Origin: Argopecten irradians | Taxonomy: Eukaryota > Mollusca > Bivalvia > Pectinida > Pectinidae | DNA length: 64,000 bases | Assembly: GCF_041381155.1 (NCBI RefSeq) | Contig: NC_091134.1 | Coordinates: 29,951,540 to 30,015,539, forward strand | Direction of reading: 5' to 3' | Part shown: piece by piece, positions 242-57,200 of the stretch | How the letters are laid out: each line of letters begins with the position of its first letter | How positions within the stretch are numbered: the stretch's first letter is position 1 | Made by a program: the position numbers and the translations under genes | Notes under the pieces: model-generated | Told to the model about the DNA's origin: nothing | Seen by the model: only the letters and a program-made list of their open reading frames with translations | The model's database searches: none

Positions 242-3200
242 TGGTTGATCTGGTTCTGAAGCTAGCAGGCAAGAGGGATGCTAACACACCACCAGACACT
301 GCCCCTGCCTTAGCAGTCAGCGTCCCTGTAGAACCAGTCCTAAGGTCTGGCCTGGCTATACCTGAAGTCTTTGTGTCTTGTAAGTTTCAAACACTCAAAT
401 ACTGTATATTCATTGCTAATATTGACCAAAGAAAAAGATAAAGTTTTAAGTTTTTCCTATGAATACCATTTGATAGTGTTTACTAACACATAACTGTGAA
501 ATACATGTAATTATTTAACATGGCCGGGGTTTAATTTTCATGTTGATCGGTTATTGATCAAAATCAATGAATTTTAGTCCACAGAAATTGATTTTTTTAA
601 TGAATGTACACAAATGTCAGGTAAGTTTATGCATTCATTTGATGATTTATTGCCCACTGCATAAATAAAAGTCTATTTCATTGTTCAAACAAAGATAGTT
701 TTCACAATTTTGTAGGCTATATATGTTGGGTGTCAGATTGTGATTCTGATGAAACTGTTGTAGTTTGTGTGGAGTGTGATTCTGCCTCCTCTGAGACGTC
801 TCCTTGCCTGGTCCATAACCCAGAGTATACTACGATTGGCGACACTCCTATCCCCAGCAGAGCTCGGGCATCTCTCCCCACATGTCTCTACCTCAAGTCT
901 TCAGATACACCTCTACAAAAAGTGATGGGTAAAACTATTTACAAAGGCTTGTGAAAAAATGAAATACATAACATAACATGTCATTGCTATATCAGGAATC
1001 ATATGTTAATAATGAACTTTTTCTAGACATGTAACTGAACTGATCTTATTAATGTTCATGGTAAAGACAGAGTGTTTTAGGGATTGAATTATTTTTCAAT
1101 TAGGGAATTAAGATTACTTTTCATTGATAATAGATCAAGTGTCTAGATCTGTTAATGACTTAAGCCTTATCTTTGTCTGTTTGATACTGTAACTTGATAA
1201 AATAATACTTTTAGGTGTGTGGGCAAACTCAAAGTGTAACTTGATAAAATAATACTTTTAGGTGTGTGGGCAAACTCAAAGTGTAACTTGATAAAATAAT
1301 ACTTTTAGGTGTGTGGGCAAACTCAAAGTGTAACTTGATAAAATAATACTTTTAGGTGTGTGGGCAAACTCAAAGTGTAACTTGATAAAATAATACTTTT
1401 AGGTGTGTGGGCAAACTCAAAGTGTAACTTGATAAAATAATACTTTTAGGTGTGTGGGCAAACTCAAAGTGTAACTTTGATAAAATAATACTTTTAGGTG
1501 TGTGGGCAAACTCAAAGTGTAACTTGATAAAATAATACTTTTAGGTGTGTGGGCAAACTCAAAGTGTAACTTGATAAAATAATACTTTTAGGTGTGTGGG
1601 CAAACTCAAAGTGTAACTTGATAAACTAATACTTTTAGGTGTGTGGGCAAACTCAAAGTGTAACTTGATAAAATAATACTTTTAGGTGTGTGGGCAAACT
1701 CAAAGTGTAACTTGATAAACTAATACTTTTAGGTGTGTGGGCAAACTCAAAGTGTAACTTGATAAAATAATACTTTTAGGTGTGTGGGCAAACTCAAAGA
1801 TAAAAGCTAACAGCAAATTTGGGCCACTGGTTGGAAAAGTGAGTTCTTCTGCTCCTGGCGAGTCCAAACTGGGCTCTCTTCCGGAGTTCAAGGTAAACAT
1901 CATTCAAGTCTACTATTATCACCTACTACTGTGGAATAGTTACCTTTTGCTGTGGAATAGTTTGTGAACTATTCCACGTGAAAACGTAACTATTCCTCAG
2001 TTGAAGGTGAATGTAGCGACTGGTGAACATAGCTTAGCATGTAGTCAGAAATACATTTTCATTGAATTTCTTAAAATCCTCAGAGAGATGGAGTAAAGAT
2101 TAAACTAGGTACTTGTCAACATTGTTGTGATGAAATATGTAAACCTATTTTCATGATACTGATATACATATATATATGTATACAATTTTCATCACTTCAT
2201 TCCAAAATAAATTTCATCATTTCTTTCACAGCCACTGTATCCATAACCCAGAAAGGAATTCACTAGTAATGGGCAAATCCAGAACAGAGAATATTAAATC
2301 CCATCATACAAATACTAAATTTTCTGCCCAAATGAAATTACAGAGGCTTGACATGCTTTTTAGCTCACCTGGCCCATATGTTATATACAACAATTGGCCC
2401 TTGATTGTATCTGGTATTTGATTTGTGTAACTGTTGTAATGTTACAGGTTATATACAGTGACAAAGTTGACCAGTATGATTTGGAGGATGAACAAGAGTG
2501 TAACTGGCTCAAATTTGTACAGATGGCACGAACAGAGGCAGCTCAGAACATGGTAGTCACACAATTAGGCTCTGAGATCTTCTTCTTCACCACAAAGGAA
2601 ATCTATCCAGGAGATGAACTACTCTTCTGGTACTCCAAGGATTATGCCCGTTTCTTAGGTAAACACTACACTCACACTACAGTCATTATTCAGAAATGAT
2701 TTCTACCGATTGAAGAGGAGAAATTGTTATTAGGTGTCAAGTAATCGATTTTATTCGTCTTTTGTCTAGGCCCAATTTCACAAACATTCCTTAACTTTAA
2801 GGAATTTCTTAAACTTAAAATTCTCCAAAGGAGATATTACAGAAGTTAAGGAAAGAATCTTAAGTTAAGGAGCCTTCCTTCAAATCTGTAGTTAAGGAGT
2901 TAAGGAAAGTTAAGGAATGTTGGTGAAACTGGGCACAGTTGTCTCGGGTCAAATGTCCTTAACCAATTTACATTTTTGAATTCTCTATAAGAAATAGAAC
3001 AAATTCAGTAAAAGTTTTGCAGGATTCTTCAATGGCCTAAGATCAATCAAAATGGAGGGAGGGGGGGGGGGCAAAAGAGGTCTTATATTTTCTAATCTTC
3101 TTCTCAACTGTCAGGTTTGGTAGATGGAAAAGTACTTTCTATACATTGCTGTGCAAAAATATTTGAATTTTATAGCACTGGGATCTTAGATTTTCACCCT

Positions 3201-54200: not shown

Positions 54201-57200
54201 CTACAGATAGAGTCAACATCCACTAGAGTTATACATGAAGCTACCCTCCTGTTGGTGTGGTGACCTGACAGTGTTAACCAGATACTACAGATAGAGTCAA
54301 CATCCACTAGAGGATGAGAGTTATACATGAAGCTACCCACCTGTTGGTGTGGTGACCTGACAGTGTTAACCAGATACTACAGATAGAGTCAACATCCACT
54401 AGAGGATGTGAGTTATACATGAAGCTACCCACCTGTTGGTGTGGTGACCTGACAGTGTTAACCAGATACTACAGATAGAGTCAACATCCACTAGAGGATG
54501 TGAGTTATACATGAAGCTACCCTCCTGTTGGTGTGGTGACCTGACAGTGTTAACCAGATACTACAGATAGAGTCAACATCCACTAGAGGATGAGAGTTAG
54601 ACATGAAGCTACCCTCCTGTTGGTGTGGTGACCTGACAGTTGTATAACCAGATACTACCGATAGAGTTCGATCGACATCCACAAGAGTATTGAGTTATAC
54701 ATGAAGCAACCCACTGTTGGTGTGTGTAGACAGTGTTAACCAGATACTACAGATAGAGTCAACATCCACTAGAGGATGAGAGTTAGACATGAAGCTACCC
54801 TCCTGTTGGTGTGGTGACCTGACAGTGTTAACCAGACACTACAGATAGAGTCAACATCCACTAGAGGATGAGAGTTATACATGAAGCTACCCTCCTGTTG
54901 GTGTGGTGACCTGACAGTGTTAACCAGATACTACAGATAGAGTCAACATCCACTAGAGGATGTGAGTTAGACATGAAGCTACCCACCTGTTGGTGTGGTG
55001 ACCTGACAGTGTTAACCAGACACTACAGATAGAGTCAACATCCACTAGAGGATGAGAGTTATACATGAAGCTACCCTCCTGTTGGTGTGGTGACCTGACA
55101 GTGTTAAACAGATACTACAGATAGAGTCAACATCCACCAGAGTTATACATGAAGCTACCCTCCTGTTGGTGTGGTGACCTGACAGTTAACCAGATACTAC
55201 AGATAGAGTCGACATCCACTAGAGGAGGAGAGTTATACATGAAGCTACCCTCCTGTTGGTGTGGTGACCTGACAGTGTTAACCAGATACTACAGATAGAG
55301 TCGACATCCACTAGATGATGAGAGTTATATACATGAAGCTACCCACCTGTTGGTGTGGTGACCTGACAGTGTTATCCAGATACTACAGATAGAGTCGATA
55401 TCCACTAGAGGATGAGAGTTATACATGAAGCTACCCTCCTGTTGGTGTCAGTGTTCTCCCCAGGCCCTTTTCCGCGTAACGGTCCCGTTACGTGGAAATT
55501 TTGAGCCGTTGCACGGAAATATCATCCGTAGCGCACTTTCAGCCTCCCGTTGCACATCAATAAATCAGACCCCGATTTTCTCTAAGTAGGTATACTGAAT
55601 ATAAACTTCATAATAAATCCCTCCTGCTACCTGACAAGTAGTACTCTTATAAATTTACGATGTCTGTCATGCCGCTATGCCATGTGGTTGGGTCCATTTT
55701 TACGACCGTGACAGTGTTGATTACTTGTGATCCGCAGGGGTGCCCTGCCATATTGTACTGTTAAATTGCATTGATAAGTAAACAAAAGAGGTGTGACTAC
55801 TCCCTAACCAACACCTCACTTGTTCTATTTAGCAGTCTGGGGATATAGGTCAGCTAGAGAGAGGAGAAATCACTGATCAAATCACTTTCAATCATGTGAG
55901 CTACGCAACGTAACAGAAGTAGGCAGCACATCGGCAGTTTAGGAAACAAACTGACACCTTTTCAACAGATGTTTTGATTATAGCTAGTGAGCATCATCCC
56001 AAAAACAAACACTGCTTGCAATTGTAAATGATTTACTCACGTTTTTAATGTCAAAATAGGCATATACCGCTGAAAGATGCCACAAACTTTGCAACCGAAA
56101 TGGCCGCCATTTTGGTGTTAGGTAATTGTAATAATGGAGCCAGATCGATGGGTATAAGAAATCCGGATTTGAAAAAAATTCCAAAATTTGTAATTTGTAA
56201 ATTTTAAGCATAATTGGATGATAAGAAACATGTCATAAAATTGTACAGATATGTGTTAGAAAAGACTTAAATTTTTATGCAGTGTTTTATCAATATTTTT
56301 TTTTTAATCTAGATCTCAATGTTACATTTACAGTACCATACAGTAACTACAGTCTGTTTTAAATATTTGAAATACACAAATAGTGATGGAATTGGGGGCA
56401 TAATCCCATAACTATCTAGAACTGTGAAACACATTAAAATAATCTTAATTTAAAAATTTAAATAATTCTAATAATTTTTAAATGCAATAAATCTGAATTC
56501 AGTAAATGTGACAGTGAGATAAAATGTTAATATTTTTTGTTATTTTAATTTTTATTATAACACTAGGCCATTAAAATTAAATTGCGACACAAAAAAAAAA
56601 TTCGCGCTGCGCCGCGCAGTTTGCAACGGGAAAAAATTACCATTGCGCAGTGAAAAAATCCTGAAGCTACCCTCCTGTTGGTGTGGTGACCTGACAGTGT
56701 TAACCAGATACTGCAGATTGCATTAAGATATACCTACCTGTTGGTGTGGTGACCTGACAGTGGCGGTACGGCAGCTGGTTCAGGCATTCTTCTACAACTA
56801 ATCGAATCTAAAATAATACAAGATAATGTAATCAATACTTTAAATCCATTGACTAGATCAGGATGACAGTAAATTAAAGTCAATTTTTAATCATGATATC
56901 TGACCATAGGTCAGAATTGAATTACCTATGATATTGCCATCGTGTTTCACCGCCCAACATGCAGAAGTTTATTTCATTCAAAAGCCTACTCCTCTGATTG
57001 TGTTAAACATCAATGAGAGACGACAATCACATTTTATATAAATGAAGCGGGATCAGACGTTATACGAATAAAGCTGGTCTGACCCCTAGGATAGAGAAAC
57101 AGCAGGGCCCTACAAGGATAAATTGGCTGAATTTTTGCTTTAAATTCCTACTCCTCCTTAATGCTTAGCTTGCATAAATTACAACCAAATAGGGTATGAG

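Follow-up and report, generated by a model that had tools for sequence, protein, structure and literature searches.

The closest described counterparts of the repeats reported here are the 'mirages' of amphioxus, known from Adh3, troponin C, the globins BflGb6 and BflGb9, and PGBD5, according to the available parts of the two reports (PMC3087553, PMC3902484). The first of these excerpts gives 6 and 3 units for the BflGb6 mirage in its two haplotypes (PMC3087553). In Caenorhabditis elegans, the abstract on the minisatellite CeRep25B describes intronic motifs near regions of alternative splicing (PMC4039745). Here we analyze a 64,000-bp stretch (the window; contig C1, 29951540–30015539) of the 846-Mb genome of the bay scallop, Argopecten irradians, containing three minisatellites whose units span exon-intron junctions, in a PRDM-like gene and in the UPRT gene, together with a sample of other genes from the same genome. 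A recurrent junction bias in this genome is supported, and many of the longest gene-internal tandem repeats of the bay scallop are copies of exon-intron junctions, and such repeats look common and above chance. The first-pass annotation of the window knew of no named system for such arrays, a place that the amphioxus mirages fill.

The three junction arrays of the window (A47, G49 and I92, with units of 47, 49 and 92 bp; Table 1) are real. The last copy of A47 is the actual acceptor of the PR-domain exon (TTTTAG/GTGTGTGGGCAAACTCAAAG, the slash marking the junction), and the AG is kept in 13/13 copies. The exon-side copy of G49, which has 174 copies in a wrap-around alignment, is the actual UPRT donor (...CTCTTTACAACACCCTCAG/GTAATAAC), whereas the donor region in the unit of I92 (66 copies, aligned likewise) reads CACCAACAG/GT or GA and the array today has no contact with UPRT exon 3, from which 1,213 bp separate it. 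Because this 1,213-bp sequence recurs elsewhere in the genome, with at least 15 other full-length (1–1213) places at 88–98 % identity among the best 40 of 651 candidates, the gap is best read, from sequence comparison, as a later insertion of a dispersed element. Partial copies of the element at 55449–56661 are also present in the genome. The annotated claim that all three arrays straddle a boundary is thus correct for their units, which carry 20, 19 and 25 exonic nt, but not for the present position of I92. Similarly, the count of 'three of three' gene-internal arrays on junctions depends on which arrays are counted: it is 3/3 at a Tandem Repeats Finder (TRF) score ≥300 and a unit of 15–130 bp, but 3/7 at score ≥300, because four UPRT intronic arrays with units of 157–327 bp and scores above 300 lie off the junctions. 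Low-score small repeats in the same UPRT introns (e.g., 34816–34877 and 49084–49147) are also off junctions.

Random placement of tandem arrays, which the first-pass annotation had proposed to examine genome-wide, was examined here in 60 loci (264,888 bases, 265 kb) of kinesin and myosin genes. A Pfam search of the genome gave 130 exon matches for kinesin and 82 for the myosin head; the 10-kb loci were the first 20 of 82 stretches ranked by number of matched exons, and the short loci the first 40 of 96 stretches around uncovered exons, with 600 bp per side. Matches to ABC-transporter (82) and SNF2 (58) exons were listed and lie outside the sample. The starting set of 141 matched exons was enlarged with 47 of 51 tblastn hits obtained using the matched exons (the four discarded being array copies), 36 of 37 hits from a relaxed exon search and one exon recognized by eye, resulting in 225 exons with 443 edges, their junctions deriving from homology and splice consensus rather than RNA. 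The rows dropped were four array-copy hits in L013, one wrong-family hit in L063 and extra hits over known exons. Arrays with a TRF score ≥300 and a unit of 15–130 bp were considered long. Two kinesin places of this genome (G000) with identical scores, C4:44755557 and C4:52950688, lie ~8 Mb apart and reflect either recent segmental duplication or haplotype duplication.

The sample contained 15 junction-straddling arrays, in 14/60 loci and in 10/20 ten-kb loci, with 11 at donors and 4 at acceptors by hand calls (Table 1); 14 of them enter the counts, because the L026 array falls under the score filter. Arrays L022 and L027 are separated from the exon by diverged sequence and were counted by homology, not contact. 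Exonic parts of the units read as the expected protein, such as FFVRHIFKLEQ (myosin, L017), EGNKAR (kinesin, L058) and NHVPYRDS (kinesin, L027). Additionally, tblastn hits from other loci reached into 15 of 69 flanked array records on the gene strand, some of these being exons that merely adjoin the array, versus none on the opposite strand. The relaxed exon search contributed five more straddlers, L016 2124–2520, L022 and L026 among them; its control on the opposite strand yielded 1 hit within the loci and 0 array records. After inspection, two arrays in L024, those in L028 and L060, and L010 7698–7946 were not counted as straddling, nor was L016 4724–4966, a 118-bp coding duplication. The latter is a tandem duplication within a myosin coding exon, of a length that is not a multiple of three. 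Of the 74 sample arrays, seven have sequence in common with a further locus, among them one that is a paralogous myosin exon and two that are a single array split by locus ends. The sequences of A47, G49 and I92 were found in 0/60 of these loci. Introner-type elements, which are dispersed intron elements, are another class of repeats tied to introns; dispersed elements of this kind were rejected as an explanation for A47, G49 and I92, which are local as judged from these 60 loci.

Table 1. Features of the window and junction-straddling arrays of the sampled loci, with coordinates in the window or in the respective locus.
Feature	Sequence	Coordinates	Strand	Remarks
A47, 47-bp array	window	1188..1799	+	13 copies; unit of 27 intronic + 20 exonic nt over PRDM-like acceptor
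PR-domain exon	window	1780..1892	+	first 20 nt are the last 47-bp array copy
Open frame with next PR-domain exon	window	2364..2699	+	PRDM2_PR, E 4e-23
UPRT last coding exon	window	33258..33362	-	
161-bp array	window	34893..36017		UPRT intron 6, away from junctions
G49, 49-bp array	window	37006..45398	-	unit of 19 exonic + 30 intronic nt over UPRT exon-6 donor
UPRT coding exon 6	window	45379..45477	-	last 19 nt are the first 49-bp array copy; donor between 45379 and 45378
UPRT exon 5 region	window	45739..45900	-	
UPRT exon 4 region	window	46458..46520	-	
158-bp array	window	46949..47262		two copies; UPRT intron 3, away from junctions
157-bp array	window	47663..49077		UPRT intron 3, away from junctions
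I92, 92-bp array	window	49377..55448	-	unit contains last 25 nt of UPRT exon 3 + donor region
1,213-bp dispersed element	window	55449..56661		between I92 and its exon
Exon-side remnant of 92-bp unit	window	56662..56718	-	98 % identical to array
UPRT coding exon 3	window	56738..56807	-	donor source of 92-bp unit
327-bp array	window	57956..59155		UPRT intron 2, away from junctions
UPRT exon 2 region	window	60301..60342	-	
UPRT exon 1, coding part	window	60862..60990	-	
Donor array, 52 bp	L015	2-704		
Donor array, 53 bp	L015	3723-7283		68 aligned copies
Donor array, 37 bp	L016	2124-2520		exon recognized by eye
Donor array, 63 bp	L017	3946-4198		
Donor array, 63 bp	L022	3535-4127		degenerate exon-side copies
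Donor array, 82 bp	L025	6643-6813		
Donor array, 34 bp	L026	5733-5847		degenerate call, under score filter
Donor array, 78 bp	L033	763-1371		
Donor array, 48 bp	L034	1318-1414		
Donor array, 54 bp	L054	1-636		
Donor array, 35 bp	L058	1284-1917		
Acceptor array, 43 bp	L010	4231-4489		
Acceptor array, 31 bp	L012	3172-3558		
Acceptor array, 88 bp	L013	7429-8062		
Acceptor array, 61 bp	L027	6016-8897		47 aligned copies

Because a single seed event can lead to a large array that covers many bases, nulls based on coverage were abandoned; instead, every array was reduced to a single unit, which was placed randomly in the locus after the same collapsing (null 1). Under this null, 13 of the 33 long arrays straddled a junction versus 3.2 expected, a number reached in 0 of 200,000 simulations (10/23 versus 1.9 in the 10-kb loci), and the same was true of 14/67 arrays with a score of 80 or more versus 5.2 (P = 4e-4). 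Within 500 bp of junctions, the values were 13/29 versus 4.0 for long arrays (P = 2.5e-5) and 14/57 versus 6.5 at a score of 80 or more (P = 0.003). With GC-matched windows, fully exonic ones excluded (null 2), the expectation was 4.2 for the 13 long arrays (P = 6.5e-5) and 5.8 for the 14 of score 80 or more (P = 0.001), which rejects GC content alone as the cause of the excess. Leaving out two calls, the long-array P was 8e-5 under null 1 and 0.0012 under null 2. A model-free comparison of exon-side unit coverage at edges and at intron points, with straddlers excluded at distances above zero (null 3), gave 13/443 edges (2.9 %) versus 16/4,246 points at 75–500 bp (0.38 %) for long arrays, a 7.8-fold ratio (6.6-fold with two dropped); coverage was already 2/439 at 25 bp and 1/438 at 50 bp, and the 13 edges contrast with 0–4 points per distance for 13 distances between 25 and 500 bp. 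At a score of 80 or more the ratio was 3.4 (14/443 versus 40/4,246), with 8/438 at 50 bp. Shorter arrays (score 80–300) showed no junction excess in the sample (1/34 versus about 2 expected), and the straddling share differed between long and short arrays (Fisher P = 2e-4). The recurrent bias at splice junctions that had been suggested from the window is therefore supported in independent genes of the same genome, at 13/33 long arrays versus 3.2–4.2 expected. In the sample introns, long arrays also seem depleted 500–2000 bp from known exons (2 versus 9.2 expected), perhaps in part from unfound exons or mobile elements.

The exonic share of the unit, read by hand, ranged from about 0.13 to 0.77, and its fit to a uniform distribution gave a Kolmogorov-Smirnov P of 0.13 for the 15 sample arrays and of 0.047 with the window arrays included. 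Amplification in a fixed register was rejected by this wide variation, which also argues against an RNA intermediate with fixed breakpoints. Neither the R-loops nor the reverse-transcribed splicing intermediates invoked in the first-pass annotation find support in these results. Five of 18 unit periods are multiples of three, not above expectation, and the units are out of codon phase. The splice dinucleotide is intact in 400/453 copies of 13 arrays, the main exception being I92 (31/66 copies). Among 14 high-identity rows with two copies, 13 exceed two periods by 0–7 bp and one is 1 bp short, and therefore microhomology is barely visible, if at all; L010 4231 and L015 7015, at least, represent higher-order rows within longer arrays. 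The GC content was 0.385 in straddling long arrays, 0.397 in other long arrays, 0.327 in introns and 0.441 in exons. Copy identity fell with distance from the exon in 10/13 arrays, as a negative rank correlation (P < 0.05 in four; rho = -0.44 in G49).

We consider it an even bet that these are splice-junction minisatellites of the mirage kind and that arrays seeded on junctions grow more or last longer than those seeded in introns. A short local duplication without fixed register would copy the exon end plus the adjoining intron, and would be tolerated because the exon-side copy still acts as a splice site; that copy would keep its role while extra copies accumulate on the intron side, as the anatomy of the arrays illustrates. 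Arrays seeded on a junction would then outgrow or outlast arrays seeded elsewhere in introns. Since the excess is confined to long arrays, the bias is placed in growth or retention. In the explanation that we favor, one end would act as an anchor, with purifying selection fixing the exon-side unit, from which slippage or unequal exchange would continue to generate new copies. Selective tolerance of arrays in which a splice site still works, also put forward in the first-pass annotation, agrees with the anatomy but would not by itself lead one to expect more of them than of arrays confined to introns: tolerance accounts for the arrays being allowed, not for their over-representation. More tentatively, a transcription- or splicing-linked process might amplify junction DNA or preferentially keep its amplifications, such that ~3 % of junctions would bear a junction-derived minisatellite and the spliceosome would ignore from tens to more than 100 intact decoys per intron.

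Several observations weigh against growth or retention of junction-seeded arrays, or against the excess on which this reading is built. Straddling status was called by hand and not blind, and the sampled loci are all kinesin or myosin genes from a single genome. Considered alone, long arrays in the 40 short loci gave a non-significant 3/10 versus 1.3 under null 1 (P = 0.12). An earlier set with fewer exons and 10 hand-called straddlers among the same arrays showed a weaker excess at a score of 100 or more (10/63 versus 4.2, P = 0.007), and, with L016 4724–4966 removed, P was 0.10 at 80 or more, or 0.24 within 500 bp; the subsequent rise is due to exons found later and to hand inspection of arrays. 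The polarity of copy identity is weak (sign test P = 0.09), is absent from I92 and was measured against the exon-side copy or the consensus, a reference that favors the trend. Besides, an anchored copy alone would not obviously boost the growth rate. Finally, short arrays may be a different mutational class, with a GC content of 0.29 versus 0.39 in long arrays, and this AT-richness makes growth and seeding poorly separable.

A close rival, although in our judgment an improbable one, is junction-directed mutation, in which, for example, transcription-replication conflict, or repair close to nascent RNA, a paused polymerase or the nucleosomes of exon edges, would seed or expand repeats. It is in agreement with the localization of the excess at the junction and with the preponderance of donors over acceptors, window included (13 versus 5, P = 0.10), but not with the missing fixed register or with shorter arrays lacking an excess. 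Somewhat less probable still is that no special process operates and that abundant arrays are placed without bias while selection removes those inside exons. Arrays (unit 15–500 bp, score 80 or more) do occupy 12 % of the 10-kb loci, uniform placement alone yields 3–4 of 33, and, with the smaller exon set, the number within 500 bp hardly departed from chance (P = 0.05 for long arrays, 0.24 for all); furthermore, tandem repeats are the largest repeat class in another scallop genome, at 21.7 % in the available part of that report (PMC10225492). Nevertheless, the 13/33 long arrays have a P below 1e-4 under the uniform, near-exon and GC-matched nulls, two calls can be dropped with P still low, as given above, and the excess is concentrated on the junction itself.

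The remaining explanations appear far less probable. Retention of junction arrays because extra splice sites aid the splicing of long introns, which we find very unlikely, would suit the dinucleotides retained in most copies; however, conservation of the dinucleotide roughly equals that of the remaining unit in most of 10 arrays and falls below it in I92 (36 GA, 31 GT) and L033 (5/8 copies), and the periods are out of phase. Scarcely credible is that the arrays are introns being born from a tandemly duplicated exon (Rogers-type intron gain), as put forward for amphioxus mirages in the accessible section of that report (PMC3087553): the units are partly intronic and the window junction arrays, those of UPRT at least, reach one intron end only. 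For the UPRT cases, an array equivalent to the whole intron from donor to acceptor was rejected, since G49 covers 37006–45398 and intron 6 continues to 33363, and I92 covers 49377–55448 in an intron extending to 46521. Just as improbable is an assembly or annotation artefact; copy numbers of long arrays are possibly misassembled, but the array copies differ from one another, the pattern repeats in 14/60 loci and protein homology backs the UPRT junctions.

The UPRT gene occupies the minus strand of the window; its seven coding exons run between 60990 and 33258. Its joined product matches solved UPRTs (E about 2e-45), and the best match of the spliced protein is the annotated A. irradians UPRT (P0001), which is the product expected from splicing at the exon-side donors. 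The PRDM-like zinc-finger gene lies at the left end of the window on the plus strand, and its joined PR domain matches that of PRDM4 (3db5, E 1.7e-19). Sequence related to the 157-bp array at 47663–49077 is present in 2/60 sample loci. Outside the assigned genes, a 49-bp array of about 65 copies at 21551–24825 contains donor-like and acceptor-like words. A dispersed repeat of at least 95 bp at 1906–2000 (2000 being the query end) has at least 39 further places with 93–97 % identity among the best 40 of 241 candidates. The open frames at 15674–20405 (-) are likely of mobile-element origin, with one weak hit, below the cut-off, to the reverse transcriptase family PF00078. The exon-like frame at 63130–63366 (+), presumably from a mitochondrial ABCB7-type transporter by its reading, had no Pfam match in the profile search.

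Some scallop genes thus carry from dozens to more than 100 decoy splice sites. If confirmed genome-wide, the junction excess would show that what was a curiosity of lancelets is a recurrent bias in a further phylum, would link minisatellite birth or growth to gene structure and would provide natural tests of splice-site choice among dozens of identical copies. Among the entries listed from the open-licence literature, none tested arrays at splice junctions on a genome scale and none described a case in a mollusc. Introns reportedly also arise when sequence around AG/GT is tandemly duplicated (Rogers; Zhuo 2007; Gao and Lynch 2009); the scallop duplications likewise carry splice signals, but the window arrays make no new intron and reach one end only. 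As with CeRep25B, the scallop minisatellites are tied to splicing regions, although their units span junctions, whereas the abstract on CeRep25B describes no junction-spanning unit (PMC4039745). The resemblance is closest to the amphioxus mirages, as far as the available excerpts describe them: the tandem unit spans the exon-intron boundary, both 5′ and 3′ boundaries are involved (13 donors and 5 acceptors in the scallop), the authentic exon stands at the end of the cluster (directly in A47 and G49, in I92 bar the insertion, and with diverged sequence between in L022 and L027), and many, not all, copies keep the AG or GT (400/453 in 13 scallop arrays). Regular splicing is undisturbed in mirages, and protein P0001 appears consistent with the use of exon-side donors in the scallop. 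Mirages are further characterized by copy numbers that vary from haplotype to haplotype or from tissue to tissue. Unlike mirages, the scallop arrays belong to a bivalve, in another phylum, and reach up to 174 copies versus the 6 and 3 of BflGb6. What is new with respect to amphioxus is the lineage, the count and the sample-based enrichment test.

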